This document shows, piece after piece, positions 7,840 through 22,129 of a stretch of 64,000 nt of DNA. The first letter of the stretch is position 1. Each line of letters opens with the position of its first letter. A program made the translations under genes and the position numbers. This DNA comes from Sandaracinus sp. (lineage in GTDB: Bacteria > Myxococcota_A > Polyangia > Polyangiales > Houyiibacteriaceae): NCBI GenBank assembly GCA_002699025.1, contig PABA01000145.1:1-64000 (forward strand), read 5' to 3'. A model generated the notes under the pieces. The model searched no databases. It was given only the letters and a program-made list of their open reading frames with translations, and was not told where the DNA came from.

Positions 7840-7943
7840 CGCACAGCCGCACAGCCGCACGGCCGCTCACCCGCACAGCCGCTCAGCCGCACAGCCGCAC
7901 AGCCGCACAGCCGATCAGCCGCACACTCGCTCACCCGATCAGA
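7840..7943. repeat. 13 x 8-bp minisatellite (CGCACAGC)
   Basis: Thirteen contiguous octamers, consensus CGCACAGC with variants such as CGCTCACC and CGATCAGC, fill 104 bases exactly. The last unit contains the TGA stop (minus strand) of the cupin gene at 7939-7941, so the array begins inside that gene's end and runs downstream. It lies between convergent genes. This is not CRISPR-like because the units are contiguous. Confidence 0.9.
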
Positions 7944-8658
7944 GCGCGGAGCGGAGGCCCGGCTCCGGGAGGCTGACGCTCAGCGCGAAGGACGTCTCCG
8001 CCGAGCGCACCGCATGCCAGTGGCCGCGGGGGAGGAAGAGGAGCGCGCCCGGCCTGAGGGTCCAGGTCTCGGCGCCGGGCCCGAAGGCAGCGTCCCAGCC
8101 CGCCCCCTCGCGGGGGCCCCACGCGACCTCGTCCCAGAGCCCCGCGGGCGGCTCGCCGTTCGCCTCGAGGCGCCAGCGGCGCACGCCGAAGAGCTGCAGC
8201 ACGAGCAGGCTCACGCCGTCGGCGTGGCGCGGCACCCAGGTCTCCGGGCCGTGGAGGAAGCCCGTGATGCCGGTCCCCAGCCCGCCGCCGAACCAGGCGA
8301 CGAGCGCCTCGTAGGCCTCGCGGCTCCGCCGGAAGTGACCCTCGAGGTGATCGATGCGCCACCAGTCGCCGGGCCCCGGCGCGAGGCTCCGGCGGCGCGG
8401 CGCCGGCAGGGGCTCGAAGGCGACCGGGCCGCGCGAACGAGCCCGCGCGCGGCGGACGCTCCGGCTGTAGCCCGCGAGCCACGCGCGCACGGCGCCGAGG
8501 TCGGCCGAAGGCGGCCCGACCCGGGCGAAGCGTTCGACGGCGCCCCGGACCATCAGGGGCCGCCGCTCCCGCCGCGCCCGCGAGAGCTCGGCGAGGGGGC
8601 GCGGCGCGAGGAGGGCGCGGAGCAAGGCCGCCCCCGCGCCCTCCTCCTCAGCGCACAT
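7939..8658 (-). CDS. Cupin/JmjC-type Fe(II)-dependent oxygenase of the RiPP locus
   Basis: A 239-residue protein with a JmjC/cupin-like fold, the family that includes 2-oxoglutarate-dependent hydroxylases. The metal-binding pair HxD is seen in VPRHADGVSLLVLQLFG near residue 150, and the second His in LFLPRGHWHAV near residue 212. The segment LMVRGAVERF near residue 35 matches the usual start of cupin_8 domains. It is last in a three-gene leftward operon: its start overlaps the stop of the ATP-grasp gene by 11 bases, implying translational coupling. The likely role is hydroxylation of an amino acid or peptide made by the two upstream enzymes. Product and substrate are inferred only from context. 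Confidence 0.8.
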   Translation of the reverse strand: MCAEEEGAGAALLRALLAPRPLAELSRARRERRPLMVRGAVERFARVGPPSADLGAVRAWLAGYSRSVRRARARSRGPVAFEPLPAPRRRSLAPGPGDWWRIDHLEGHFRRSREAYEALVAWFGGGLGTGITGFLHGPETWVPRHADGVSLLVLQLFGVRRWRLEANGEPPAGLWDEVAWGPREGAGWDAAFGPGAETWTLRPGALLFLPRGHWHAVRSAETSFALSVSLPEPGLRSAL

Positions 8659-9964
8659 GGATGCGGACCCGCTCGCGGACGCGACCGAGGAGCCGACGCG
8701 CCGCCTCCGCGTCCGCGCTCCGCGCCCACACCCCCGCCACGAAGGACTCCTCGACGTCGCCGCCGACCGGGCGGCCCTCCTCGGCCATGCGCCGGACGAC
8801 CCGCACGCCGGGCACGAGGAGCAGCCGCTCGAGACCCTCGACCGCCTCCAGCACGCCGCTCCGGGGGCTGAAGAGGAAGATCATCGCGTGGCGCTCGTCC
8901 GTGCGCGGCCCTCCCGGGAGCGCCGGCGTCTCGCCGAGGAGGAGCGCGAGCTCGAGCTCCGCCGAGTCCACGTCGAGGAAGGTGCGGAGCGAGTCCGTGA
9001 CGCAGCCGGCGCCGATGCGCGGGTTCACCTCGAGCAGCCGCGGCCCGCGATCGGGATCCCAGCGGAGCTCCACGTGGCAGAGCACGCGCCGCAGGCCGAG
9101 CGCCTCCACGCAGGCCGTGGCGTGCGCCTCGAGCTGCCGGAGCTCCGCCGGGGTGAAGCGCGCGGGCGGGCAGACCAGGAGGTGCTCGAGGACGGTGGCC
9201 GCGGTCTCCTCGACGTCGAGCTTGTCGTGCACGAGGAGGGGGACCACCCGATCGTCGAGGGCGAGGCACTCGACGCTGACCTCCCGGCCCGGGAGGTAGG
9301 CCTCCGCCAGCATGGAGCGCCGCGGGTCGAAGCGGCGCGCGACCCCGCCCTCCCGGACCTCGTGGGGCGCCATGCGGACGGGCGCGTGGTGCGCCCGCGG
9401 GAGCCGCTCGCAGGCCTCGCGGAACGCCGCGCGCGCCTGCTCGGCGTCGTCGCAGCGGTAGACGAGGCTCGCGCCCACGCCGGTGATCGGCTTGAGGATG
9501 CAGGGGAAGCCCACCTGCCGGGCCACCCGCTCGAGATCCGCCGGCGCCTCGACCAGCGCGAAGGGGACGTCGGGCACGCCGGCCGCGTCGAGGGCCTCGC
9601 GGGCGAGGAGCTTGTTCGTGGCGCGCCGGAGCGCGTCCCTCGAGGGCCCGGCGAGCCCCCGCTCGGCGCGGAGCGTGGCCACGTCGCCCGCGAGGAAGCC
9701 CACCTCGTGGAAGGGGCCGTAGGGACACGCGAGGGCGCGCACGGCCCAACGACGGTCGAGCTCGCCGAGCGCGGCGCGAAGCGCGGGGAGCGCCATGGAG
9801 GGGAGCTCGACGACCGCCGCGAGGCCGCTCCGATCGGTGGGCGCGGCGCCGATCGGGCAGAGGAGGATCACCTCCATGCCCCGCGCCCGGGCCGGCTCGA
9901 CGGAGGCGAGCGCCATCTCGGTCGAGACCGAGTCGACGTGGACCAGCGCCGGCGGGCGACTCAT
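8648..9964 (-). CDS. ATP-grasp carboxylate-amine ligase
   Basis: A 438-residue ATP-grasp enzyme, which forms an amide via an acyl-phosphate. It has the ATP-grasp features KPITGVGASLVYRC near residue 155, EAYLPGREVSVECLAL near 215-230 and the magnesium-binding VELRWDPDRGPRLLEVNPR near 295-315. Overall order (an N-terminal pre-ATP-grasp domain starting PALVHVDSVSTEMALA, then the grasp domain) resembles L-amino-acid ligases of the BacD/carnosine-synthase type. Its ATG overlaps the stop of the KamA-like gene by 4 bases (ATGA). In context it probably ligates the aminomutase product to a peptide side chain, terminus or another amino acid. The acceptor cannot be read from sequence. Confidence 0.88.
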   Translation of the reverse strand: MSRPPALVHVDSVSTEMALASVEPARARGMEVILLCPIGAAPTDRSGLAAVVELPSMALPALRAALGELDRRWAVRALACPYGPFHEVGFLAGDVATLRAERGLAGPSRDALRRATNKLLAREALDAAGVPDVPFALVEAPADLERVARQVGFPCILKPITGVGASLVYRCDDAEQARAAFREACERLPRAHHAPVRMAPHEVREGGVARRFDPRRSMLAEAYLPGREVSVECLALDDRVVPLLVHDKLDVEETAATVLEHLLVCPPARFTPAELRQLEAHATACVEALGLRRVLCHVELRWDPDRGPRLLEVNPRIGAGCVTDSLRTFLDVDSAELELALLLGETPALPGGPRTDERHAMIFLFSPRSGVLEAVEGLERLLLVPGVRVVRRMAEEGRPVGGDVEESFVAGVWARSADAEAARRLLGRVRERVRIHVR

Positions 9965-11088
9965 CCGTCCTCCCCGTCCGGGTAGTGGGAGACGATGCGG
10001 CCGGCCGCGTCGACCTCGTGCATCGGGGGGAGCGCCTCCGAGTCGCTGAAGGCGAGGAAGTCGACCGCGCGGTAGGGCGTCGTCGCGCGGATCCAGCGGC
10101 GCCCGGCGCGCTCGACGTGCTCGAGCTGCGCGCCGCGGCCGAGCCGGTGCTTTCCGACCGGCGTGACGTAGACGTAGTGCGGCGCCAGGGCGCCGGTGAG
10201 CGGCGCGAGCTCCTCGAGCAGGTCGAGGCCGCGCTGCACGGAGGTCCGGAAGTGCCGCGCGCCGACGACCGGCATGCAGTGGTAGAGGTAGTAGGGCGTC
10301 AGGCCGACGGCCGCGAAGGACTCGTAGAGGCGCCGGAGCGTGGCCGCGTCGTCGTTCACGCCCTTCAGCAGCGTCACCTGCGCGCGCACGACGACGCCGC
10401 GCTCGAGCAGGCGGCGGAGCGCGCGCACGTACGCCGGGTAGAGCTCGTCCGGATGGTTGATGGACACGGCGAGGGCGAGGCTTCGGCTCGCGGCCAGGTC
10501 CGCCGGGTCGAGGCGCTGGTAGGAGGCGAGCCAGTCGGCCATCGCGTCGTCGAGGAGCTCGGGGCGGAAGAGGAGGTTCCGCGTGCCGATGCGGAGCTGC
10601 CGGACGTGCGGGATGGCGGCGGCGCGGTCGAGGACGGCGCGCAGCAGCTCCGGGCGCACGAGCGGATCGCCCCCCGTGACGAGGACGATGCGGATGCGCG
10701 GATCGGCGGCGATGTAGGCGATGGCGCGGTCCACGTCCTCCGGGGTCATGGCGCGGCCGTCGCCGGCGAGCGTACGCGTCTTCTTGAAGCAGTAGCGGCA
10801 GTAGGCGCTGCAGTCGAAGTAGGGCGTCAGCACGGCGCGATCCTCGTAGATGCGCTCGAGCCCATAGATACCCCGGTTGTCCTTGCCCTCCTCGAAGGGC
10901 GTCTCCGTCCCGCCGTACTCCTCCAGCTCCTCGACCGAGGGCATGAACTGGCGCGCGACGCCCTCGGACCGGCGCATCAACCGCGTGACGTTGGCCGTGA
11001 GCTTCGCGCGAAAACGCGCCGTGACGTCGCGCCGGGTCGCCCCTCGCGCGGCGCCGCCTTCGACGACCGGCAACATCGTTCTTGACAT
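9961..11088 (-). CDS. KamA-like radical SAM aminomutase (lysine 2,3-aminomutase family)
   Basis: A 375-residue radical SAM protein of the lysine 2,3-aminomutase/EpmB family. The cluster motif is CSAYCRYC near residues 95-102 and TGGDPLVRPE follows. The PLP-lysine region reads YVYVTPVGKHRLG, where the Lys corresponds to the PGGGGK lysine of KamA, and YHCMPVVGARHFR corresponds to the conserved DxxxGxxHFR stretch. I chose the ATG at 11088 because GAGAGGA precedes it at good spacing; a GTG at 11121 is possible. The reaction is probably alpha- to beta-amino acid isomerisation, with lysine the default guess. It is first in the operon with the ATP-grasp and cupin genes. It is unlikely to serve EF-P, since neither efp nor epmA is present. 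Confidence 0.88.
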   Translation of the reverse strand: MSRTMLPVVEGGAARGATRRDVTARFRAKLTANVTRLMRRSEGVARQFMPSVEELEEYGGTETPFEEGKDNRGIYGLERIYEDRAVLTPYFDCSAYCRYCFKKTRTLAGDGRAMTPEDVDRAIAYIAADPRIRIVLVTGGDPLVRPELLRAVLDRAAAIPHVRQLRIGTRNLLFRPELLDDAMADWLASYQRLDPADLAASRSLALAVSINHPDELYPAYVRALRRLLERGVVVRAQVTLLKGVNDDAATLRRLYESFAAVGLTPYYLYHCMPVVGARHFRTSVQRGLDLLEELAPLTGALAPHYVYVTPVGKHRLGRGAQLEHVERAGRRWIRATTPYRAVDFLAFSDSEALPPMHEVDAAGRIVSHYPDGEDG

Positions 11089-11133
11089 GGAACCGTCCTC
11101 TCTCTCAGCTTGGCGAGCCACCCCGACGATTCG

Positions 11134-11168
11134 CCTGAAAAGCGCGCGGAACCGACCCTCGTTTCAGG
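11134..11168. promoter_or_regulatory. Inverted repeat in the divergent promoter region
   Basis: A perfect CCTGAAA (11134-11140) ... TTTCAGG (11162-11168) inverted repeat lies between the divergent KamA-like and DUF6445-like genes, within the only 88-bp gap that can hold both promoters. It could be an operator controlling both. No convincing sigma70 hexamers were seen. Confidence 0.35.
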
Positions 11169-11176
11169 GAGAAGAA

Positions 11177-11800
11177 ATGCGTAAGTCCGTCATCGTGATC
11201 GACGACTTCTACGAGGACCCGGACGCGATCCGGGAGCTGGCCCTCCGCCAGCGCTGGACGCGCAAGGAGGGGGCCACCTATCCGGGGCGGGAGGCGATCG
11301 TCCCCGGGCGCGATTGGAGCGACGCCCGGGCGCGGCTCCGGAGCGAGATCGACGAGCCCGTCGACGGGCCGGGCGAGAAGGACCCGCCTTTCCCGCAGGG
11401 GAAGTTCCGGCTCGCGCTCGCCTCGGACGCCGAGACGCGGGTGGATCGGGTGCACGTCGATCAGCAGCGCTGGTCCGGCGTCGTCTACCTCTCCCGGGAC
11501 CAGGACTGCCGCGGTGGGCTCGCCCTCTACCGGCACCGCCCCACGGGCTCGCTGACCTGGGACGAGCGCTGGTTCATGACGCACTACGGCCACCTCTACC
11601 TGCTGCCCGACGAGCAATTCCGAGAGGGCGTTCTCGCCTTCTTTCGTGACGAAGAGCAGTTCGAGCAGATCGGCCTGATCCCCATGGCCTACAACCGCGC
11701 CATTCTGCTCATGGCGCAGGTCTTTCACGGCACGGGCGAGGTCTTCGGAGACCGCGAGGAGCGCGGTCGCCTCACCCAGCACTTCGAGTTCTACGAGTAG
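11177..11800 (+). CDS. DUF6445-like putative Fe(II)-dependent oxygenase
   Basis: A 207-residue protein starting RKSVIVIDDFYEDPDAIREL, which resembles the DUF6445 family of small putative non-haem iron oxygenases. An HxD pair (RVHVDQQRWSGVVYLS, near residue 94), GGLALYRHRPTG (near 113) and a later His in MAQVFHGTG (near 185) could form a 2-His-1-carboxylate site. ATG 11177 is preceded by GGGAGAAGAA. It is transcribed divergently from the KamA-like gene and lies inside the RiPP locus, so it probably tailors the same product. Family assignment is from motif recall and biochemical function is inferred. Confidence 0.72.
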   Translation: MRKSVIVIDDFYEDPDAIRELALRQRWTRKEGATYPGREAIVPGRDWSDARARLRSEIDEPVDGPGEKDPPFPQGKFRLALASDAETRVDRVHVDQQRWSGVVYLSRDQDCRGGLALYRHRPTGSLTWDERWFMTHYGHLYLLPDEQFREGVLAFFRDEEQFEQIGLIPMAYNRAILLMAQVFHGTGEVFGDREERGRLTQHFEFYE

Positions 11801-11885
11801 GCCTCTCCGATGCCCTTCCCCTCCGACCCTCACGCCTCCGAGCCCCCCCACCTCCGAGCCTCTCGTCCGCGGCCCCCGCTGCGCG

Positions 11886-12431
11886 ATGCGCGCGCTCCGG
11901 GCCGACGACGAGGCCGCCTTCCTCGAGGCCTGCCGCGACTCGACGGCCCTGCACCACCCCTGGGTCTCGCCGCCCACGGATCGCGAAGGCTTCGCCGCCT
12001 ACCTCGCGCGGGAGAGCGCGTCCTTCCGGCTGCTCCTGGTGCGCCGCCGGGAGGACGACGCGCTGATCGGCGTCTTCAACCTCAGCCAGATCGTGCGCGG
12101 CGTCTTCCGGAGCGCCTACCTCGGCTACTACGGCTTCTCCGCGACGACGGGCCGCGGCTACATGCACGAGGGCATGACGCTCCTGGTCCATCACGCCTTC
12201 CTCACGATCGGCCTCCACCGGATCGAGGCGAACGTGCGGCCGGAGAACCGCGCCTCCATCGCCCTGGTGCGGCGCTCCGGCTTCGAGCGGGAGGGCTACT
12301 CACCGAACTACCTCTTCCTCGACGGCGCCTGGCGCGACCACGAGCGCTGGGCGATCCGCCGCGAGATCTGGCGACCCAGCGAGGACGTCGAGGTCCTCGC
12401 CGCTCCCGAGGAGCCCGCCAGCGGGCCATAG
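11886..12431 (+). CDS. GNAT N-acyltransferase (RimJ/RimL type)
   Basis: A 181-residue GNAT protein that would transfer an acetyl group from acetyl-CoA to an amine, possibly an N-terminus. Family features are FLEACRDSTALHHPWVSPP, LIGVFNLSQIVRG, GYYGFSATTGRGYMHEGM (acetyl-CoA loop, near residues 80-97) and the IEANVRPENRASIALVRRSGF motif of the RimJ branch. The reading frame continues upstream of ATG 11886 through sequence resembling the usual strand 1 (LVRGPRCAMRAL) without an obvious start codon, so the true start may be non-canonical. Its last 132 bases overlap the convergent tfuA gene. It could acetylate the mature peptide or protect the host. Confidence 0.8.
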   Translation: MRALRADDEAAFLEACRDSTALHHPWVSPPTDREGFAAYLARESASFRLLLVRRREDDALIGVFNLSQIVRGVFRSAYLGYYGFSATTGRGYMHEGMTLLVHHAFLTIGLHRIEANVRPENRASIALVRRSGFEREGYSPNYLFLDGAWRDHERWAIRREIWRPSEDVEVLAAPEEPASGP

Positions 12432-13085
12432 GGCGTCGCTCCCCGTGACGAGGGAGAGCGCGAGCGCGGCGCCCCGGCGCTTCGGATCGTGCCGATGCGT
12501 CTGGAGCTCCCGGGCCAGGCGGCGCGCGCCCTCGAGGCTCGCCCCGGCCTCCCGCCAGCGCTCCAGGCAGCGGCCCGGCGTGCGCTCGAGGAAGTGGAGC
12601 GCCCGCGCCTCGGCGAAGCGCGCCCGCGCCTCGGCCTCCGCGAGGCGCCCGGCCTCCAGCTCGCGCCCGAGGGTCGCGCGCAGGTGCACGAGCGAGACCG
12701 TGAGCTCGCGCGCGCAGGCCTCGTCGTAGCCGACGGCGACCTCGCCGTCCGAGGTGAGCGTGCCGAGCCGATAGCCCGCGTGGACGGCGCCGACGCCCAC
12801 CATGCCCTCGCTCCAGCACTCGCTGGCCCGGAGCGCGCCCATGCTCGCCGCGCCGACCACCGACCAGCCGGCCCGGAGCAGCGCCCGGCATTCGGTGGGT
12901 GTGACGGCGAGGTGACTCGAGAAGAGCCCGTCGAGGATCAGCACGCGCCCCGGGGCGCGCTCGAGCAGGCGGTCCGCGTCCCCGCGCCGCATCGGCGGGC
13001 GCCACTCGGCGTCCACGCCGCGCCGGAGCGAGCGCGGGAGCGAGGGCCCGGCGAAGACGACCGGCCGCTCAGCCGCGCCGAACAT
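12300..13085 (-). CDS. tfuA: TfuA-like protein (YcaO partner)
   Basis: A 261-residue TfuA domain protein, the partner of YcaO enzymes in peptide thioamidation (thioviridamide-type RiPPs, methyl-coenzyme M reductase). The family core is easy to see: VVFAGPSLPR (residues 9-18), PPMRRGDADRLL, VLILDGLFSSHLAVTPTEC, then GAASMGALRASECWSEGM and VGAVHAGYRLG followed by the acidic DGEVAVGYDE. The ATG at 13085 lies inside the 3' end of ycaO (17-base overlap). In known thioamidation systems TfuA is thought to mobilise or deliver sulfide; no sulfurtransferase is visible here. Its 3' end overlaps the convergent GNAT gene. The C-terminal 60 residues are less conserved-looking. Confidence 0.92.
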   Translation of the reverse strand: MFGAAERPVVFAGPSLPRSLRRGVDAEWRPPMRRGDADRLLERAPGRVLILDGLFSSHLAVTPTECRALLRAGWSVVGAASMGALRASECWSEGMVGVGAVHAGYRLGTLTSDGEVAVGYDEACARELTVSLVHLRATLGRELEAGRLAEAEARARFAEARALHFLERTPGRCLERWREAGASLEGARRLARELQTHRHDPKRRGAALALSLVTGSDALWPAGGLLGSGEDLDVLAGSPDLAADRPALVVAPGAVEEEVVR

Positions 13086-14331
13086 CGCGCCCCCGCGCCG
13101 GGTCGACGAAGCGGTCCCAGAGGCCGGGCACGCAGACGTGCGCGACGGCGAAGCCCCCCGGGCCGGTCGAGAGGTCGGTGACGACGGCCCCCTCCGCGGC
13201 GGCGCCGAGCCGGTCCCGGAGCAGCCGGAGTGCTTCGCCGGCCGTGGGCGGAGGCGCGGGGGCCGGCGCCTCGAGGAGCGTCGAGGGAGGCAGGCGGCCC
13301 ACGAGCGCCTCCACCTCGCGGAAGCGGGCCTCGACGGTCTGCGGGTCGTCGGCCCAGCTCGAGGCGTGGCGCTCCAGGTCCTCGCGGCTGCCCTGGATGG
13401 CGACGGCGCGGCTCTGCACGAGCTCCCGGAGCGCGCGGAGGAGCGCGGCGGCGGGGTCGAGGTGGGCGCCCTGACCGGAGACGGCGAGGTGGTGCTGGCC
13501 GGCGCCGCGATCGAGCGCGAAGACCTTCACGACCGGCACACCGGAGCCCTGCGACTCGTGGCACCGCAGCCCGTGGCACCGCAGCTCGTGGCACCGCAGC
13601 TCGAGACAGAGCAGCTCGACGCCCTCCCCCTCGAGCCGCGCCGAGAGCAAGGCCGCCTCCCCGCCGAGGCCCGAGGGCGGGATCCGCGCCGGCCAGACGC
13701 CCTGGCCGAGCCGGGAGGTCACGTGGCGCTCGACCACCTCGAGGAGCCCGTGGAAGGTCGCCTCGGCGAGCCCGCTGCCCGCCGCCAGCCCGCTCGTCGA
13801 AGGCCGCACGGGCCGCGCCAGACCGGGCGGCGGGTGATAGGGGAAGAGCACCTCGGCCGCGGGCACCCAGGTCGGCGCGCCGTCCACGAGGCGCTGGCCG
13901 CGGACCCACTCGAGGGGCGCCGCCGGCGCCTCGACCCCCAGCTCGCGTGGCGAGACCAGGCGCTCTCCGGCCGCCTCGAGCGCGGCGACCGGCGCGCACC
14001 TCCGCTCCCGCGGGGCCGCCGCGGCGTGCCGCTCCACCGCCTCCATCAGCGCCGCCGCCCCCGCCTCCTCCCGCGTGCGCCCACAGCCCTGGACGCTCGT
14101 GTTCTGACCGGCGGGCGCGCCGGGCCGGACGGCGGCCACGACCGGGACCCCGAGCCGATCGAGATCGGTCAGCTCGGCCAGGCGCGTGACGCCGAGCTCG
14201 CGCCGCCTCGCCCAGGCGAGCGGGCCGACCTCGGCGAGGGAGCGCGCGCGCCAACCGGCGCCGAGCCGCGCATCCGCGCCCGGGAGCTCGAAGGCGCCGG
14301 GCGGGCGCGCGCGGTGGCCTTCAGCGCGCAT
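13069..14331 (-). CDS. ycaO: YcaO-domain ATP-dependent cyclodehydratase/thioamidase
   Basis: A 420-residue YcaO protein, which phosphorylates a peptide amide backbone with ATP so that an azoline or, with TfuA, a thioamide can form. Visible family elements are AGQNTSVQGCGRTREEAGAA leading into ALMEAVERHAA (the Mg/ATP acidic motif, about residues 75-108), then GLAAGSGLAEATFHGLLEVVERHV (about 175-198). The C-terminus (VDPARGRDVRRG) lacks the PxPxP end typical of azoline-forming YcaOs. The segment LRCHELRCHGLRCHESQG holds three LRCHE/G-type tandem heptads, an unusual Cys/His-rich insertion that could bind metal. Its start overlaps the carbamoyltransferase stop by 11 bases. Confidence 0.93.
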   Translation of the reverse strand: MRAEGHRARPPGAFELPGADARLGAGWRARSLAEVGPLAWARRRELGVTRLAELTDLDRLGVPVVAAVRPGAPAGQNTSVQGCGRTREEAGAAALMEAVERHAAAAPRERRCAPVAALEAAGERLVSPRELGVEAPAAPLEWVRGQRLVDGAPTWVPAAEVLFPYHPPPGLARPVRPSTSGLAAGSGLAEATFHGLLEVVERHVTSRLGQGVWPARIPPSGLGGEAALLSARLEGEGVELLCLELRCHELRCHGLRCHESQGSGVPVVKVFALDRGAGQHHLAVSGQGAHLDPAAALLRALRELVQSRAVAIQGSREDLERHASSWADDPQTVEARFREVEALVGRLPPSTLLEAPAPAPPPTAGEALRLLRDRLGAAAEGAVVTDLSTGPGGFAVAHVCVPGLWDRFVDPARGRDVRRG

Positions 14332-17300
14332 CGGCCACCGCGTTGAGATAGCGCTGCCCGTGGAGCGCCGTCAGCCAGGAGAGGATCATCGAGCGGCGCG
14401 CCTCGGCCGCTGGCGACGCGGCGAGGCCCTCCGCCACCGTGCCCCCGCGCTCGCACACGCGGAGCACCGCGGCGACCTCGGCGGGCACGACCTGGGCCGC
14501 GCGACCGCTCCCCTGCAGCGTGCACGCCTCGGCGCCCCCGCCGAGCTCCGAGCGGAGCCGCAGCCCCGGCGCGAGGCGGAGGCGCGCGTCCGGGCCGATC
14601 TCCGCGGGGGCGCGCGGCCGCACCAGCCGATCCTCGAGGACCAGCGCGTCGAGGCCGCTCCCGAGGAGCACGTCGAGGGCCTCGAGGGGCGTCTCCACGA
14701 GCGGCTCGCCGCGCCGGTTGAAGGAGGTGTTGAGGAGGACCGGCACGCCGATGCGCTCCCCGACGAGGTGGAGGAGCCGGTGCCAGCGGGGGTGGCTCCG
14801 GGCGGTGACGGTCTGCACGCGCGCCGTCCCGTCCACGTGGCAGACGGCGCCGAGGAGCGGGCGCGCCTCCGGGCGCACGCGGACGACGCGCAGCATGTAG
14901 GGGGACGCGCCGTCGAGCTCGAAGTAGCGCGCGGCGTGCTCGAGCGGGACGACGGGGGCGAAGGGGCGGAAGTCCTCCCGGTACTTCACCTGACGGTTCA
15001 CGCGGCGCCAGGTCGAGGCGTCGCGCGGATCGGCGAGGATGGAGCGGTGCCCGAGGGCGCGCGGGCCGAGCTCGGCGCGCCCCTCGAACCAGCCGACGAT
15101 GGCGCCGCCCGCGATCCGCTCGGCCACGTCCGCCAGGTCGACGTCCGAGACCTCCACGCGCTCCGCCCGGGCCCGCAGCGCGAGCTCCACGTCCGCCGGC
15201 CCGTAGCGGTGGCCGAGGCCGTCGTCCGGGGCGGTGGCCGGGGCCGGCGCGTGGACGCCGAGCGCGTGGCTCGCCGCGAGGGCCGCGCCGACGGCCGTGC
15301 CCCCGTCGTGGCTCGCCGGGAAGAAGAAGCAGCGCTCGGCGCCCCGGGCCTCGACCAGGCGCTGGTTGAAGCAGCTGTTCAGGGCGAGCCCGCCCGTGAA
15401 GACGATGGCCTCGAGGTCCGTGGCGCGCCGCGCCCGCTCGACGCGCTGGAGGAGCGCCCGCTCGAAGTCGGCCTGGACGCGGGCGGCGAGGTCGCGGTGC
15501 GCCATCGGATCGGCGGGCGGATCCCGCCGCGCCTCGCGGAGCTTCCACGCCGTGGTGAAGCGGAGCAGCCCGTCCGGGCCCTCCTCGAGCAGGCTCGGCC
15601 CGTAGCGCTCGGCGTCGCCGTGGGGGGCGAGCCCCATGAGCTTCCCCGAGGCGTGCCAGGAGCCGAAGACGTAGGCGCTGACGGCCGCGTAGGTCTCGCC
15701 GAGGGAGCTCGAGCCGCAGCGCACGTTGAAGGAGTCGGCGGTCTCGCGGGAGAGGAGGCGAGGCGGCTCCCCGCGGCGAAAGGCGTAGGCGGAGAGGACG
15801 TGGAGCGCCGGGCGGCGCGGGGGGACGGCGGCGAGGTAGTCGCGGAGCGCCGGGCCCCGGAGGACGAGGTCGTCCGCGCCGACCGTGCTCCCGCCCGAGC
15901 CATCCGCGACGACGACGAGCGCGGCGTCGAAGGGGGAGGCGGCGAAGGCCGCCCAGGCGTGCGCGAGGTGGTGGGAGACGAAGAAGCTCCGCGGGCCGAG
16001 CGGATCGAAGAGCGCGAAGCCCGCCGTGGCGAGCGGCTGGGAGAGGCCGACCCAGCCCGGGAGGAGCGGCTGGCTGTTGAAGGCGAAGGCGTCGACGTCC
16101 TCGGGCCGGAGGCCGGCGGAGTCGAGGCAGTAGCGGGCCGCCTCCTCGGCGCCGAGGGCGCCCTCGCCGTCGTGCTTGACGCGGGTCAGGCGCTCGAGGG
16201 GGATCGCCACCTCGGGCCGGCCGTCCCGGAGGAGGCACGCCGACCCGTCGTGGCTCGCGGCGAGCCCGAGCACGCGCAGCGGGCGGCGCCGATCTCGCGA
16301 CCGAGGGGAGGCGGAGGCGCGGGAGGCAGCCGACGGCTGAGCAGGCGCGGAGGCGCGGGAGGACTCCGGCGCGCCGGGAGAGTCCGATGCGTGCGCGAGC
16401 TCCGCGCCGGATGCCACGAGGGCGACGCTCCGGGCCGATCCCCCGAGGGTGAGCTCCACGAGGAGCGTCTCGCCGGGCTCGGCCTCGACGTCGAGCGCCT
16501 CCCAGCCGCGCGCCGCGCCTTCGGCCCGTAGCCTGCCGTCGCCGTCGCGCACACGGAGCGCGACCTCCGGCCCCGCGTCGACCCAGCCGAGCGCCCGCCC
16601 GTGGCGGCGCACGCAGGCGACGACCGTGACCCGTCGATCGCGCGCGTGCAGAGCGAAGCGGCGCGTCTCGCCGAGCGCCGGCCGCGCCTCGCTCCCGGCG
16701 AAGGGGCGGAGGGGGCCGTCGACGAGCTCGCGCCCGGCCACGCCGTCCAGCGGGCGCGCCTGGGCCAGGAGCGCGGCGCGGACGAGGGCCGGCGTCGGCT
16801 CGAGCCCGGCCTCCAGGAGGGCCTGGCAGACGCGCGCGGCGAGGCCGGTCGCCACGGCCACCGCGCCGGAGGTCCCGTCGAGCGCGCCGAGCCCACCGCC
16901 CGGCATGCGCGCGGCCCAGCGCCGCTCCGCGACGAAGAGCTCCGGCTTGCGGGGCGCCGCGTCGGCGCCGCACCAGGAGACGGGACGCCCGGCCTCGTCG
17001 CAGACCCCGACGGCGAGGACCGCCTCGCAGCTCGCCGGGAAGCGGAGGCGACCGGGGCCGTCGTGCCCGGCCGCCGCGAGGGTCGCGACGGCATGCGGGG
17101 CTGCGTCCGCCCACTGCGTCACCAGCGCCCGCCCGACGTGCGCCAGGTGGTGGTCCTCCGGCCCGGACCAGGCGAGGCCGAGCACGTGCGCGCGCCCGTG
17201 GGTCTCCCCGAGCGCGCGGATGCGCTCGCCGATCCCCTCGACGGTCATGCCCGCGTGGGAGGCGTGGACGAGCTCCGCGTCGGGCGCCAAGCCGAGCGGC

Positions 17301-17533
17301 CCGCCCGGCCGGCCCGCGGCCTCCTCGCCCTCGCCGACGATCGACGCGACCCGCAGCGCGTGGCTGCGCGGGGCCTCTCCCTCGCGCGCGTCCTCCACGC
17401 GGGCGCGCCCGCCGAAGGACCAGCCCGCGGGGAGGTCGTCCGCGAGGAGGAGCACGCGCGCGCCCCGGCCGGTGCGCGACCGGAGCGGGAAGGCCTCGCG
17501 GGGGGCCACGGTCGACGTCTCGCGCTCAGCCAC
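14321..17533 (-). CDS. Tripartite fusion: subtilisin-like domain, carbamoyltransferase, RRE-like domain
   Basis: A 1070-residue protein with three parts. Residues 1 to about 300 resemble a peptidase S8 fold: VLLLADD (candidate Asp32/33), SHALRVASIV (His58) and LDGTSGAVAVATG (Ser222). The oxyanion Asn position reads AAGHDG (His157), so activity is uncertain. From about 412 to 970 it is a NodU/CmcH O-carbamoyltransferase: LGLAASHDGSACLL, SHHLAHAWAAF (metal site, about 520), FTGGLALNSCFNQ, FEGRAELGPRALGHRSI and NTSFNRRGEPLVETP. Residues about 978-1065 (RLRLAPGLRLRSELGGG ... VVPAEVAAVLRVCERGGTVAE) have the pattern of a PqqD/RRE winged helix, the leader-binding module of RiPP enzymes. The GTG start overlaps the MNIO stop by 8 bases. 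I know of no described protein with this architecture. Confidence 0.88.
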   Translation of the reverse strand: MAERETSTVAPREAFPLRSRTGRGARVLLLADDLPAGWSFGGRARVEDAREGEAPRSHALRVASIVGEGEEAAGRPGGPLGLAPDAELVHASHAGMTVEGIGERIRALGETHGRAHVLGLAWSGPEDHHLAHVGRALVTQWADAAPHAVATLAAAGHDGPGRLRFPASCEAVLAVGVCDEAGRPVSWCGADAAPRKPELFVAERRWAARMPGGGLGALDGTSGAVAVATGLAARVCQALLEAGLEPTPALVRAALLAQARPLDGVAGRELVDGPLRPFAGSEARPALGETRRFALHARDRRVTVVACVRRHGRALGWVDAGPEVALRVRDGDGRLRAEGAARGWEALDVEAEPGETLLVELTLGGSARSVALVASGAELAHASDSPGAPESSRASAPAQPSAASRASASPRSRDRRRPLRVLGLAASHDGSACLLRDGRPEVAIPLERLTRVKHDGEGALGAEEAARYCLDSAGLRPEDVDAFAFNSQPLLPGWVGLSQPLATAGFALFDPLGPRSFFVSHHLAHAWAAFAASPFDAALVVVADGSGGSTVGADDLVLRGPALRDYLAAVPPRRPALHVLSAYAFRRGEPPRLLSRETADSFNVRCGSSSLGETYAAVSAYVFGSWHASGKLMGLAPHGDAERYGPSLLEEGPDGLLRFTTAWKLREARRDPPADPMAHRDLAARVQADFERALLQRVERARRATDLEAIVFTGGLALNSCFNQRLVEARGAERCFFFPASHDGGTAVGAALAASHALGVHAPAPATAPDDGLGHRYGPADVELALRARAERVEVSDVDLADVAERIAGGAIVGWFEGRAELGPRALGHRSILADPRDASTWRRVNRQVKYREDFRPFAPVVPLEHAARYFELDGASPYMLRVVRVRPEARPLLGAVCHVDGTARVQTVTARSHPRWHRLLHLVGERIGVPVLLNTSFNRRGEPLVETPLEALDVLLGSGLDALVLEDRLVRPRAPAEIGPDARLRLAPGLRLRSELGGGAEACTLQGSGRAAQVVPAEVAAVLRVCERGGTVAEGLAASPAAEARRSMILSWLTALHGQRYLNAVADAR

Positions 17534-18386
17534 GGGCGCCCTCGCGAAGCCGGGGGGCCCAGCCGGCGCGCTCCAGGGCCGCCTCGATGCGCGCGAGGTC
17601 CCGCTCGATGGCCTCCCGATCGAGGCCCACGCCGATCTCGTAGGTCACGGCGCGGAGCCGGGGCGCGCGGGCGGCGACCCGCTCCACGAGCTCGAGGACC
17701 TCCGGCAGGATCGGGTCGCTGTGGCTGTCCACGTAGCGCCGCGGGTCCTCCTCGGAGACGCGCCCGCCCGCGACGTGGAGCTCGACCACGGGCTCCATGG
17801 GGAAGGCGTCGGCGACGGCGAGCGGGTCGGCCCCGCTGCAGAGCGCGTAGGAGTAGACGTGGCTGAGGTCGGCCACGAGGTCGCAGCCGGTGCGGCTGGC
17901 GAGCGCCCGGAAGTAGGCGCCGAGCGAGAGCTCCCCGGCGGCGATGGTGAAGGAGGGGTTCTCGGCGGCGAAGGGGACGCTCCCCCGCCGGAGCATCTCG
18001 CGGACGCCGGCGGCGACGTGCTCGACGCCCTCGCGCGAGAGGAGGGGCGCCGTGAAGTAGGGGAGCGCCCGCGGGCCGAGCGACCAGATCCCGACGTCCT
18101 CGCAGCTCCAGAGGGCCCCGAGGGCGCGGGAGATCCCGTCGAGCTCGGCGAAGCGGCGGAGGTCCGGCCCGCCTGGGTCCGCTGGGGCGACGGCCGAGAG
18201 GTGATGCACGATCGGCAGGGGGCCCGCGCAATCGCGGCGGAAGGCGTGGGCCTCCTCCTCGCTGCGGAGGCTGACGATGGAGAGGTGCGAGAGCGCCGGC
18301 CGCAGCCCCGCGCAGAATCCCACGAGGCCCCCCGGGTACTCGTCCGCGTACTGGGCGTCGAGGCCCACGCCGACCCGGGGGCTCAC
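17526..18386 (-). CDS. DUF692/MNIO multinuclear iron oxidase
   Basis: A 286-residue TIM-barrel protein of the DUF692 (MNIO) family, which uses two or three irons to modify RiPP precursors, as in MbnB (methanobactin), TglH and ApyH. Likely metal ligands are all present: VHHLSAV (about residue 80), AENPSF (about 140), ADLSHVYS (about 170), VELHVAGG (about 200), VDSHSDPI (about 218) and TYEIGVG (about 257). The last motif has Gly where many members have ErD. GTG start with a 4-base GTGA overlap to the stop of the partner gene, so expression is coupled. The substrate is presumably the adjacent 70-residue peptides; since these lack Cys, chemistry must differ from MbnB or TglH. Confidence 0.9.
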   Translation of the reverse strand: MSPRVGVGLDAQYADEYPGGLVGFCAGLRPALSHLSIVSLRSEEEAHAFRRDCAGPLPIVHHLSAVAPADPGGPDLRRFAELDGISRALGALWSCEDVGIWSLGPRALPYFTAPLLSREGVEHVAAGVREMLRRGSVPFAAENPSFTIAAGELSLGAYFRALASRTGCDLVADLSHVYSYALCSGADPLAVADAFPMEPVVELHVAGGRVSEEDPRRYVDSHSDPILPEVLELVERVAARAPRLRAVTYEIGVGLDREAIERDLARIEAALERAGWAPRLREGARG

Positions 18387-19108
18387 GCGCCGACCTCCAG
18401 CGCCGCGACGCGCACCACGCCGTCGCCGTCGACCGTGGCCACCGTGAGCGAGGTGCCTTCGCCGACCGGGCTGCCCGGCTCGAAGCCCCCGCGCTCGACC
18501 CGGCGCCAGGCCTCGACCAGGCGCCAGCCGCTGAGGAGGGTCTCGGTGGCGCGCGCCTCGGGGAGCGCGAGGGCGGGGCCGCGGGCGGGCCAGGGGCTCG
18601 GCAGGGTGGGCCTATTGGCCAGCGCCGAGAGCACGGCGGCGAGGCGCACCAGGAGGCGCGTCGGCTCGCTCAGGGTCGGGCGCGACACCAGGTGCAGGCA
18701 GAAGCTCTCGCCGATGGTGCGCCCGGCGCCCTCCCAGAAGGCCGGCGCGTCGAGGAAGCTCGCCAGGGCGGCGTCGATCTCGGCGTCCGGGACGAGCCGC
18801 GGCAGGAGCGGGAGCTCGCGCGCGAGGTGCCAGCGGAGCTGCCTCCGCCGGGCGCGCTGCTCGAGGCCGAGGAGCCTCGGGTCCAGGTCGCGAAGGAGCG
18901 CGAGGGTCGCCCGCGGGAGGGCGTCGTCGGTCGCCGCGAGGGCGAAGGCGGTGGCGGCGGCCGCGGGGGAGTAGAGCAGCCGCAGGAAGAGCGTGGAGCG
19001 CGCGGCGTGGTCGTCGCGGCGCAACAGCTCGCGGAGGCGGAGCGTGGTCGGGCCCGGATCCTCGACGGGATCCGGGCCCGGCCCCGGCAGCGACGTCAGT
19101 CCTGCCAT
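18383..19108 (-). CDS. MNIO partner protein (leader-binding type, inferred)
   Basis: A 241-residue alanine/leucine/arginine-rich, mostly alpha-helical protein lying directly between the precursor peptides and the MNIO gene, the position occupied by the MbnC/TglI/BufC-type partners that dock the leader. No catalytic motif is visible. A C-terminal beta-like segment (SLTVATVDGDGVVRVAALEV) could be part of a docking domain. Its ATG lies within the 3' end of the second precursor gene (13-base overlap, the ATG being read from GAATGG), so it is translationally coupled to the peptide. The sequence itself is not clearly recognisable, so the role is assigned from position. Confidence 0.7.
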   Translation of the reverse strand: MAGLTSLPGPGPDPVEDPGPTTLRLRELLRRDDHAARSTLFLRLLYSPAAAATAFALAATDDALPRATLALLRDLDPRLLGLEQRARRRQLRWHLARELPLLPRLVPDAEIDAALASFLDAPAFWEGAGRTIGESFCLHLVSRPTLSEPTRLLVRLAAVLSALANRPTLPSPWPARGPALALPEARATETLLSGWRLVEAWRRVERGGFEPGSPVGEGTSLTVATVDGDGVVRVAALEVGA

Positions 19109-19308
19109 TCCTTCGCCGACGAGACGACGCGAGCCGACAGCTCGGTGAGGGCGCCGACGTTGAGGTTGACCTGCTTCAGGTAGTCCTCGGCGTGATCCCG
19201 GGCGAGCAGGCGGATCATCGCCTCCCGGAACTCGCGATCCTCATCGATCAGCGCGGTGATCTCCTCGAAGGAGATTCCCTTCAGCTTCTTGCTTCCCACG
19301 AGCACCAT
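19096..19308 (-). CDS. RiPP precursor peptide, copy 2
   Basis: A 70-residue peptide identical to copy 1 at 45 of 70 aligned positions without gaps. The leader is charged and helical (SKKLKGISFEE, EDREFREAMI, DHAEDYLKQVN) and the conserved tail is LSARVVSSAKEWQD. No Cys and no Thr in the tail; Ser58, Ser63, Ser64, Lys66, Trp68 and C-terminal Asp70 are the candidate modification sites. Immediately followed by, and overlapping, the MNIO partner gene. The ribosome-binding AGGAG (19316-19320) is built from the Gln-Glu codons and stop of copy 1. No known leader family matched confidently; the EDREFREA stretch is vaguely Nif11-like. Confidence 0.85.
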   Translation of the reverse strand: MVLVGSKKLKGISFEEITALIDEDREFREAMIRLLARDHAEDYLKQVNLNVGALTELSARVVSSAKEWQD

Positions 19309-19312
19309 CGGC

Positions 19313-19525
19313 CTACTCCTGCCATTCCTTGTTCGAGGACACGACCCGCGCGGAGAGCCCCGCGAGGACGCGCGCGTTCACGTTGACCTCACCGAGGTAG
19401 TCCTCGGCGTGATCCTTCGCGATGTGCTTGATCAGGGCCTCGCGGAACTCCCGATCCTCCGCGATGACCTCTGCGAGATCCTCAAAACTCAATCCCTTGA
19501 GCTTCTTACTCAATGCTTCCACCAT
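19313..19525 (-). CDS. RiPP precursor peptide, copy 1 (operon leader gene)
   Basis: A 70-residue peptide, first gene of the leftward operon, 4 bases before copy 2. The leader contains LSKKLKGLSFEDL, EDREFREALI and DHAEDYLGEVNVN, and the tail reads LSARVVSSNKEWQE. Compared with copy 2, positions 58-64 and 66-69 are invariant while 65 (Asn/Ala) and 70 (Glu/Asp) vary, and the stretch 51-56 just before the tail is divergent, as expected for a leader-core junction. A strong GGGAGGT ribosome site lies 6 bases before the ATG. No cysteine occurs. It is divergent from the Eis-like gene, so its promoter must lie in the 68-bp gap or within that gene. Confidence 0.88.
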   Translation of the reverse strand: MVEALSKKLKGLSFEDLAEVIAEDREFREALIKHIAKDHAEDYLGEVNVNARVLAGLSARVVSSNKEWQE

Positions 19526-19593: not shown

Positions 19594-20814
19594 ATGCCCC
19601 CCACCGACTCCCCTGCCGACTCCCCGGCCGCGCCGCGCTACCGCGTCGCCGAGCCCGCCGACCGCGCCGCCCTCAGCGGGCTGATGCGCTGGTCCTTCCG
19701 CAAGCGCCCCGAGGAGGCCGAGCGCTGGCTCGACTGGGTGGGCCCGGACGCGCCGCGCGTGCTCGAGCTCGACGGCGAGCCGGCCGCGAGCGCCCTGGTG
19801 CGCCCCGCGGGCCTCTTCCTCGGCGGGCGCCGCGTCTCGACGCAGACGGTGGCCGCCGTGGCCACCGACCCGGTCCGGCGTGGGCGCGGCGCGGCGCGGG
19901 CGCTCGTGGAGGGCGTGCTGCGCGAGGCCGCCGATCGGGGCCTCGCGACGGCGACCCTCTACCCGTCGACGCGGCGCCCGTACCGGCGGGTCGGCTTCGG
20001 GGTGGCCGGGGTCCGCTACGGCTACCGGGTCGGGACGGCGGCGATGCGACCCGCTTCCCGCGAGGCGGCCGTGGAGGTCGCGCCGCTGCGGGACGAGGAC
20101 CTCCCGGCGCGCGCGGCGCTGCGGCGCCGGCTGGCGCTCGAGGAGCACGGGCCCCTCGAGCGGGACGGCTACTGGTGGCGGCGGCTCTCCGAGCACCCGA
20201 CGCTCGAGGTGCGCGGCTTCGCCCTTCGCGTCGGCGAGCGGCTGGTGGGCTGGGTCCACCTCGCCGAGCTGCCGGGGCCGGCGGGCTCGTTCCGCTACGA
20301 CCTCCGCGTCACCGACTACGGCTGCGCGACGGCGGGGGCGCTGCGGGCCCTGCGGGGCTTCCTCGCCGGGCATCGGAGCCTCGCCGATCACGTCAGCTGG
20401 TCCGGGGGCCCCGCCGATCCGCTCTGCCTCGCGCTCGACGACGCGACCTACGAGGTGTCCCAGAGCCCCTCCCATTGGATGCTCCGGGTGGTCGACGCGC
20501 GCGCGGCGCTCGTCGAGCGAGGCTGGCCGACGTCGGTGCGCGGGGAGCTCGGGCTCCGCCTCCGCGACCCGCTCCTGCCGCGGAACGAGGCCCCGTTCAC
20601 CGTGCGCCTCCGGAGCGGCGCCGCCGAGGTCGAAGAGGGCGCCCGGGGCCCGGCCGCCGAGGCGGACGTCGAGACCTTCGCGTCGATCTACACGGGCCTC
20701 CTCTCCCCGCGCCGGGCCGCGGCCCTCGGGCGGCTCACGGCCCCCGACGCGCAGCTCGACCTCATGGAGGAGGCCTTCCGCAGCCCGACTCCGTGGATGA
20801 GCGAAGCCTTCTGA
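19594..20814 (+). CDS. Eis-like GNAT acetyltransferase
   Basis: A 406-residue protein of the Eis (enhanced intracellular survival) family: two GNAT domains plus a C-terminal sterol-carrier-like domain. The acetyl-CoA motif is in VAAVATDPVRRGRGAARALV (about residues 88-107), followed by TLYPSTRRPYRRVGFGVAG, very typical of Eis. The second domain begins near VAPLRDEDLPARAALRR (about 164), and the C-terminal part contains FASIYTGLLSPRRAAALGRL. Eis enzymes acetylate amines on aminoglycosides, peptides or proteins. It starts 68 bases from the precursor genes in the opposite direction, so it may provide self-protection or tailoring for the RiPP, or simply be the boundary gene. Confidence 0.88.
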   Translation: MPPTDSPADSPAAPRYRVAEPADRAALSGLMRWSFRKRPEEAERWLDWVGPDAPRVLELDGEPAASALVRPAGLFLGGRRVSTQTVAAVATDPVRRGRGAARALVEGVLREAADRGLATATLYPSTRRPYRRVGFGVAGVRYGYRVGTAAMRPASREAAVEVAPLRDEDLPARAALRRRLALEEHGPLERDGYWWRRLSEHPTLEVRGFALRVGERLVGWVHLAELPGPAGSFRYDLRVTDYGCATAGALRALRGFLAGHRSLADHVSWSGGPADPLCLALDDATYEVSQSPSHWMLRVVDARAALVERGWPTSVRGELGLRLRDPLLPRNEAPFTVRLRSGAAEVEEGARGPAAEADVETFASIYTGLLSPRRAAALGRLTAPDAQLDLMEEAFRSPTPWMSEAF

Positions 20815-21217
20815 GCACGATCCGCTGCACTTGAAGTGCAGCCCGTTCGCCCGAGAACCGCGGCTCATGACGGCGCCGACGCGCGGACCCATCGGTCGAC
20901 GATCCCGAATTGATCGGCGCCCATGCGACGGGCGCTCCCCCGTTTGCCTCCCCGTTTCGACCCCCATGGCGCGAGGCACGTTAGGGAGCCCTTCGACGCC
21001 CTGTCCATGGCCTCTTGTTGCCGTGAAACTTGCACCTCCCCCGCCTGTGGTTCCCCGGGAGGAATTCCCGTTCCATGGTCCATGGGCCGGCCTGCCCAGC
21101 CGGGGGAGGGCCCCGATGACGGCGCCCGGCCGCGGGCCCGGGCTCCGCGCACGAACGGGTTCGCGAGCGAAGTTCCGCTTTCGACCGCTGCGCCCCTTCG
21201 ATAGGCTCGACCCTTCG
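20815..21217. other. Gap without gene between Eis-like and MerR-B12 genes
   Basis: This 403-bp stretch has no convincing coding sequence. At 20824-20842 there is a perfect 9-1-9 palindrome GCTGCACTTGAAGTGCAGC just after the Eis-like stop, which could be an operator or a terminator stem without T-tract. The remainder is somewhat less GC-rich than the genes and presumably holds the promoter of the MerR-B12 gene, but no hexamers are convincing. Confidence 0.6.
20824..20842. promoter_or_regulatory. Perfect 19-bp palindrome
   Basis: GCTGCACTT-G-AAGTGCAGC, nine-base arms around a single G, 10 bases after the Eis-like stop codon. The sequence reads as a dimeric regulator site or a short hairpin. 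No T-run follows on either strand. Confidence 0.5.
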
Positions 21218-22129
21218 ATGGCAGCAGGCGACTACCGCATCGGAACCGTGGCGCGCCTCACGGGGCTCGATCCGCACACGATCCGGGCGTGGGAGCGCCG
21301 CTACGGCGCGGTGGAGCCGCGTCGCACGGAGGGGGGCACGCGCCTCTACGGCGACCTGGACATCCAGCGCCTGCGCATGCTCAAGGCGGTGACCGACCTC
21401 GGAGATGGGATCGGCGTCGTGGCCGGCCTCTCCGACGAGGCGCTCCGGGAGCGGCTCGCGGAGCTCCGCGGCACGGTGGAAGACGAGGCGAGCGGAGAGG
21501 GCGCCCCCGCGGCGGACCCGACCGACGAGCTCTTCGACCTGGTCAGCCGCTTCGACGAGGACGGCCTGGCGGCCCGGCTGCGTCGCGAGGGCCGGCTGCG
21601 GACGCCCTCGGCGTTCTTCCGCGAGGTCGGGGCGCCGCTCATGGCGAAGGTGGGCGACGCCTGGGAGGCGGGCGAGCTCTCGGTGGCGCACGAGCACATG
21701 GCGAGCGAGCAGCTCCACGCCATCGCGCGGGGGCTGCTCGAGACCATGGGCCACGCGGCCACGCGTGGGGACGCGCTGCTGGCCTGCATCGACGAGGAGC
21801 AACACTCGCTGCCGCTCCTCGGCGTGGGCCTCGCCTGGGCCGAGCTCGGCCTGCGCGTGCGGGTGCTCGGGACGCGCACGCCGCCGGAGGCGCTCGCCGC
21901 GGCCGTGCGGGAGCTCCGGCCCGCGGTGGTCGGGCTCTCCATGACGCGGGGGCTCGAGCCGAAGCGGGCGAACGCGCTCCTCGCGGGCTACGCGGACGCC
22001 TGCGGCAAGACCCCCTGGATCGTGGGCGGGCGGGCCGCGGCCGAGCATGCCGAGCGCATCCGCGAGCACGGGGCCTACCTCGCCGATGGCGACGGGGCCG
22101 AGCAGCTCCGTCAGCTGCTCCTGGCCTGA
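21218..22129 (+). CDS. MerR-family regulator with cobalamin-binding domain (CarH/LitR-like)
   Basis: A 303-residue transcription factor: N-terminal MerR winged helix (YRIGTVARLTGLDPHTIRAW, residues 5-24) and a C-terminal B12-binding module. The helix-bundle photoreceptor signature W-x9-EH is present as WEAGELSVAHEH, matching CarH Trp131/Glu141/His142. The lower-ligand His is likely in EEQHSLPLLG, where the canonical ExHxxG has Pro instead of Gly. CarH proteins repress carotenoid or light-response genes in the dark and release DNA when light breaks the Co-C bond. No carotenoid gene is nearby, so the target is unknown. An in-frame ATG upstream (20831) would add only low-complexity sequence. Confidence 0.9.
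   Translation: MAAGDYRIGTVARLTGLDPHTIRAWERRYGAVEPRRTEGGTRLYGDLDIQRLRMLKAVTDLGDGIGVVAGLSDEALRERLAELRGTVEDEASGEGAPAADPTDELFDLVSRFDEDGLAARLRREGRLRTPSAFFREVGAPLMAKVGDAWEAGELSVAHEHMASEQLHAIARGLLETMGHAATRGDALLACIDEEQHSLPLLGVGLAWAELGLRVRVLGTRTPPEALAAAVRELRPAVVGLSMTRGLEPKRANALLAGYADACGKTPWIVGGRAAAEHAERIREHGAYLADGDGAEQLRQLLLA

Follow-up and report, generated by a model that had tools for sequence, protein, structure and literature searches.

The locus analyzed here raises two questions: does it encode an undescribed class of ribosomally synthesized and post-translationally modified peptide (RiPP), and do all of its enzymes act in one pathway? It lies in a 64,000-nucleotide stretch of a Sandaracinus sp. 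contig (PABA01000145.1, positions 1 to 64,000; assembly GCA_002699025.1), hereafter called the window, and all window coordinates are given in this numbering. An earlier note on this DNA had proposed a new RiPP class, in which two small peptides are modified by an MNIO with its partner, a fusion of an S8 peptidase with a carbamoyltransferase, a YcaO-TfuA pair and a neighbouring beta-amino-acid module.

Assignment to the std class

The precursor genes A1 (starting at 19525) and A2 are followed on the minus strand by genes D, E, F, G and H (ending at 12300); from A2 onward, the stop of each gene overlaps the start of the next by 4 to 17 bases. A second minus-strand operon, also tightly overlapping, consists of KamA-like (starting at 11121), ATP-grasp and JmjC (ending at 7939) genes; a plus-strand pair encoding a DUF6445 protein and a GNAT acetyltransferase sits between the two operons. 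The genes, families and overlaps claimed in the earlier note were all confirmed, as every open reading frame (ORF) was found at its coordinates and the families were verified by Pfam/NCBIfam profile searches.

The same core genes have been described as the std cluster of Streptomyces thermodiastaticus JCM 4840, the chemistry of which was reconstituted in vitro with mass spectrometry and nuclear magnetic resonance (preprint, May 2026; PMC13174530). This cluster encodes StdA (a precursor ending in SNKEWQE), StdD (the RRE partner), StdE (MNIO), StdF (S8-NodU carbamoyltransferase), StdG (YcaO), StdH (TfuA) and StdI (a major facilitator superfamily [MFS] protein). The reported order of events is thioamidation of Asn, then conversion of Lys to homocitrulline by carbamoylation, accompanied by loss of EWQE, and then beta,gamma-bis-hydroxylation; 97 StdA orthologues spanning three phyla were reported (PMC13174530).

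When the std reference locus itself was compared protein by protein with the window, proteins D to H matched in the same order (E-values from 1e-19 to 0). The MNIO partner D (241 residues; 18383..19108, minus strand) matches no Pfam family and is 33% identical to StdD, its homologue in the same position (1.3e-19). The MNIO E (286 residues; 17526..18386, minus; PF05114, 1.1e-20) is 47% identical to StdE. The fusion protein F (1070 residues; 14321..17533, minus) is 47% identical to StdF over 1012 residues, with profile matches to Carbam_trans_C (1.7e-64), Carbam_trans_N (5.7e-22) and Peptidase_S8 (1.6e-9). The YcaO protein G (420 residues; 13069..14331, minus; PF02624, 3.2e-54) is 40% identical to StdG, and the TfuA protein H (261 residues; 12300..13085, minus; PF07812, 5.9e-30) is 45% identical to StdH. 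A StdE protein tree placed the window sequence with those of three Streptomyces (support 97/90).

Both precursors are 70 residues long, 64% identical to each other and retain S-x-K-E-W-Q-[E/D]. A1 (19313..19525, minus) ends exactly in SNKEWQE, a C-terminus identical in StdA and eight other loci, and is one of the two genomic copies; A2 (19096..19308, minus) ends in SAKEWQD, with Ala at the position of the thioamidated Asn and Asp replacing the last Glu. The middle residue of S-x-K is Asn in 11 of 13 precursors, the exceptions being A2 (Ala) and L023, a locus in a genome of the window's class (Gly). In Streptomyces, Dickeya and Pseudomonas, too, peptides sharing this C-terminus stand ahead of the same set of five enzymes, and this recurrence argues that the arrangement of peptides and enzymes is not due to chance. 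The linkage on which the earlier note had staked its proposal thus holds in other phyla, and the same set of genes in other std-type loci bears out its reading of the peptides, MNIO, partner, S8-carbamoyltransferase, YcaO and TfuA as one RiPP pathway.

The window contains an SNKEWQE precursor, a StdD-StdE pair, an S8-carbamoyltransferase fusion and a YcaO-TfuA pair. Since terminal motif, gene order, identities and the StdE tree agree, every core gene can be assigned to the std class, and we conclude with considerable confidence that the window holds a std-type cluster for RiPP biosynthesis. The earlier note was therefore right about the kind of system but not about its novelty, as the same genes and motif had already been described as std (PMC13174530). 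That this is an undescribed class is very improbable: the DUF6445, GNAT and KamA genes are absent from the discussion in the main text of the std preprint, but the cluster agrees with std in its precursor motif, in all of its core enzymes and in their order, and StdA has orthologues in three phyla (PMC13174530).

Within the std class, the window cluster is thus a diverged member. It comes with an additional, probable oxygenase, a second precursor of the Ala type and a neighbouring module whose relation to it is uncertain. It shares with the reference locus the order A-D-E-F-G-H and the C-terminal SNKEWQE, and a GNAT relative adjoins StdI in the latter. It differs in having two precursors (one with SAKEWQD), a longer leader, a DUF6445 gene and an adjoining KamA-ATP-grasp-JmjC operon, and in having no MFS gene beside the core. 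A search of the window with MFS relatives from three std loci was negative; the kind of exporter varies among members, others having a C39 ABC exporter, so that an MFS protein does not define the class.

Several points weigh against this assignment. The individual steps were shown experimentally for the Streptomyces enzymes only, while the window cluster is known from its genes and motifs; the std chemistry depends on a single preprint (PMC13174530), identities to the studied enzymes are only 33-47%, and thioamidation of Ala, as A2 would require, has no precedent in the std study (PMC13174530). The roles of GNAT and DUF6445 are putative, drawn from recurrence and family, and the surroundings of the core within the window yielded no exporter and no ThiS/ThiF proteins to supply sulfur.

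A carbamoyltransferase is also included in the biosynthesis of the RiPP crocagin (cited in PMC13174530). This enzyme is what crocagin has in common with the window cluster. To our knowledge, crocagin has an unrelated scaffold and lacks YcaO-TfuA and MNIO.

Predicted core pathway and the follower

By orthology to the reconstituted Streptomyces pathway, the core steps are likely to be conserved in the window. In the S-N-K segment, YcaO-TfuA would swap a backbone oxygen for sulfur at the central residue, which is Asn in A1 and Ala in A2. The Lys side chain would be converted to homocitrulline by the carbamoyltransferase half of F, whose S8 half would remove the follower EWQE or EWQD, and beta,gamma-dihydroxylation would come after follower removal.

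The S8 half of StdF has been proposed to remove the follower (PMC13174530), and variation among members bears on this step. Two loci have precursors that keep S-x-K without EWQE: L057, on Piscinibacter gummiphilus plasmid NZ_CP136338 (...LSNKARQKPW), and L023 (...MSGKVDPNG). In both, the catalytic S8 His and the Ser of the GTS motif are lost; these residues are retained in the window and kept in all eight of the aligned loci with EWQ[E/D]. This coincidence of losses links the S8 domain to follower removal, although L057 and L023 may share one ancestor and hence represent one or two loss events. Both resemble the window in having D, E, F, G, H and DUF6445 (MNIO 43-44% identical), and L057 also has a GNAT gene, as in the window. 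They differ from it in the lost S8 residues and EWQE, in a C39 ABC exporter, and in that the S8-carbamoyltransferase is fused to YcaO in one ORF (L023:2916-7346 and L057:9218-13534).

The C-terminal 93 residues of F are confidently predicted to adopt a PqqD-like winged-helix fold (predicted local distance difference test [pLDDT] of the model 88.6). This domain matches PqqD (Z 9.1, 85 residues, root-mean-square deviation [rmsd] 2.4) and TbiB1 (Z 8.7), but it is structurally closest to the C-terminal domains of GdmN (Z 10.5) and NovN (Z 9.3), ordinary antibiotic carbamoyltransferases that act on small molecules. The "RRE" label given to this domain in the earlier note thus fits the modelled fold, with leader-peptide binding unproven.

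Distribution of std-type loci

The window was compared with 11 other std-type loci: three from Streptomyces, four from Dickeya, and one each from P. fluorescens, Burkholderia sp. TSV86 (the contig ends inside the cluster), the Piscinibacter plasmid and the genome of the window's class carrying L023. A genome-wide DNA pattern scan in which a stop codon had to follow the motif directly produced 25 matches, the majority of them chance-like, and a std-type locus was present in 6 of the 15 genomes tested from it. As this was the only genome-wide pattern scan, the size of the class is underestimated. In StdE profile searches, the seed was the sole match in each of four sets: 379 genomes from the phylum of the window, 294 from the order of the std Streptomyces, 398 from the family of Burkholderia and 199 from the genus Pseudomonas. 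Four of nine genomes in the genus Dickeya were positive, and viral contigs gave no match.

A ThiF-rhodanese protein is encoded in eight of the 11 other loci, six of which also have a partner of 86-88 residues ending in Gly-Gly. Examples of the latter beside ThiF-rhodanese genes (L061:12168-12434, L062:8951-9211 and L063:10962-11228) have no Pfam match; their ending and their neighbour suggest that they are likely ThiS/MoaD-type sulfur carriers supplying thioamidation. ThiS-like proteins near TfuA genes were noted earlier in Actinobacteria (PMC6511847). The main text of the std preprint makes no mention of an acetyltransferase, MoeB or a sulfur carrier (PMC13174530). Most of the 11 loci encode an MFS or C39-ABC exporter. 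In the four Dickeya loci (L062, L078, L079 and L080), the cluster is terminated by a gene of the Asp/Arg beta-hydroxylase family.

GNAT and DUF6445

The GNAT gene (11886..12431, plus; 181 residues, RimJ-like; PF13302, 8.2e-20) has a relative in nine of the 11 other loci, and the DUF6445 gene (11177..11800, plus; 207 residues; PF20043, 4.3e-18) in four. Because both recur with the core, both appear to belong to the std class, as the earlier note had suggested in grouping them with it. The tails of the TfuA and GNAT genes, on opposite strands, overlap by 132 bp (12300-12431).

The DUF6445 motif HxD...H...RxT (H93, D95, H184 and R198-L-T) is invariant across five loci. A sequence profile found no solved relative, and a literature search on the family name found no paper. 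Its AlphaFold model, which is weak (pLDDT 59.8), matches the P. putida prolyl hydroxylase P4H (Z 12.7, 152 residues, rmsd 3.0). Given the motif and the prolyl-hydroxylase-like predicted fold, this protein is probably a 2-oxoglutarate (2OG)-Fe(II) oxygenase, and its recurrence and family suggest that it would contribute a further oxidation.

On similar grounds, the GNAT protein would acetylate the mature product, as tailoring or self-protection. We see even chances that it serves self-resistance rather than biosynthesis, inactivating the product intracellularly, in the way that MccE acts on microcin C. Such a role would suit a RimJ-like protein that is nearly universal in the class and whose gene often marks the edge of the cluster on the other strand, as in the window and in Streptomyces, but in Dickeya, Pseudomonas and Piscinibacter the gene is collinear with those for biosynthesis.

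The KamA-ATP-grasp-JmjC operon

The earlier note had also drawn the second operon into the pathway. The KamA-like radical SAM/pyridoxal phosphate aminomutase (9961..11121, minus; 386 residues) matches TIGR03822 (2.9e-55, below the curated cut-off) and TIGR00238 (1.7e-47), and has the CxxxCxxC motif as CSAYCRYC. In an alignment with lysine 2,3-aminomutase (2a5h), Met283 stands at Asp293 and Val319 at Asp330, residues known to bind the lysine side chain in that enzyme. As both are replaced, the protein is not of the lysine type and lysine is an unlikely substrate; the lysyl mass shift predicted earlier (+128.095) finds no support. The ATP-grasp protein (8648..9964, minus; 438 residues; PF13535 and PF18603 [LAL_C2, 6.2e-10]) has as its nearest solved relatives the dipeptide-forming L-amino acid ligases BL00235 and BacD. 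The JmjC_2/cupin oxygenase (7939..8658, minus; 239 residues; PF08007, 1.7e-11) has a putative asparaginyl hydroxylase as its solved relative (5.6e-9). For all three, membership in the pathway is unproven.

If the ten genes did form one pathway, a KamA-made beta-amino acid would be joined by the ligase to the homocitrulline-bearing peptide and hydroxylated by JmjC, giving a hybrid RiPP. The KamA operon does have the orientation of the core, and its genes overlap tightly. A gap of 55-90 bp separates its start from the divergent pair of DUF6445 and GNAT genes; as both of these recur with the std core, pair and operon might have a control region in common. A larger JmjC_2 protein also adjoins std in two Streptomyces. 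We nevertheless consider this scheme unlikely. Neither KamA nor ATP-grasp was found in any of the 11 other loci, the KamA-like protein is not lysine-type, and the Streptomyces JmjC_2 protein has double the length, shares just 31% identity over 71-75 residues and is absent beside the third Streptomyces locus. A weak KamA match in L061 was rejected, being MoaA by Pfam. Among 280 genomes of the same class as the window, two KamA relatives (approximately 40% identical) were found, neither with ATP-grasp or std neighbours.

Moreover, B. cenocepacia carries a KamA-ATP-grasp-2OG-Fe_Oxy_2-MFS operon (L069:7760-12358, unannotated in the record) without any std gene, which looks like a small pathway for a beta-amino-acid dipeptide. 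Like the window operon, it has relatives of KamA and ATP-grasp, arranged in that order ahead of an oxygenase gene, and a Met at the position of lysine 2,3-aminomutase Asp293; it differs in having no std genes, an oxygenase of another family and its own MFS exporter. On a Rhizobium plasmid, KamA and ATP-grasp relatives occur with a cupin-like gene within 9 kb. A literature search for a dipeptide pathway with an aminomutase and an ATP-grasp enzyme found nothing relevant.

The absence of KamA and ATP-grasp from the other loci and the comparable B. cenocepacia operon leave the single-pathway claim unsupported. The simplest reading of these genes is a separate small pathway placed beside the std cluster, in which the mutase, ligase and JmjC protein would most likely yield a beta-amino-acid dipeptide-type metabolite, or else an optional extra group. 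We regard as distinctly unlikely a scheme in which the ligase extends the std peptide with a non-lysine beta-amino acid made by the radical SAM enzyme, DUF6445 and JmjC oxidise it, and YcaO-TfuA thioamidates both Asn and Ala. If true, it would yield a RiPP carrying a non-ribosomally added beta-amino acid.

Genomic surroundings

No further copy of the YcaO, the StdE-like MNIO or the two peptides was found in the 9.24-Mb genome at the thresholds used. An Eis-like GNAT/SCP2 acetyltransferase gene (19594-20814, plus) is divergent from the precursor operon, starting 68 bp from it, and is probably a chance neighbour. Next to it lies a gene for a MerR-B12-binding regulator (20831-22129, plus; listed start probably too early), whose domains are laid out as in CarH-type light sensors. 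The genes flanking the locus (Eis-like, MerR-B12, M50 and transglutaminase) have no relative in the eight std-type loci compared. An ABC ATPase (54250-54945, minus) has relatives among the C39 exporters that other std-type loci encode, but its gene is too distant to be assigned to this cluster.

Significance

With the Sandaracinus cluster, a RiPP class that was described only very recently gains a diverged member. Beyond the main text of the founding paper, this comparison points out the near-universal GNAT and the recurring DUF6445 oxygenase with its 2OG motif, as well as the ThiF-rhodanese and ThiS-like pair of other members, which could supply the thioamide sulfur. The joint loss of the S8 residues and EWQE is independent evidence, from evolution, in favour of the cleavage step that has been proposed, and the natural Ala variant A2 provides a ready test of the tolerance of the thioamidating pair.

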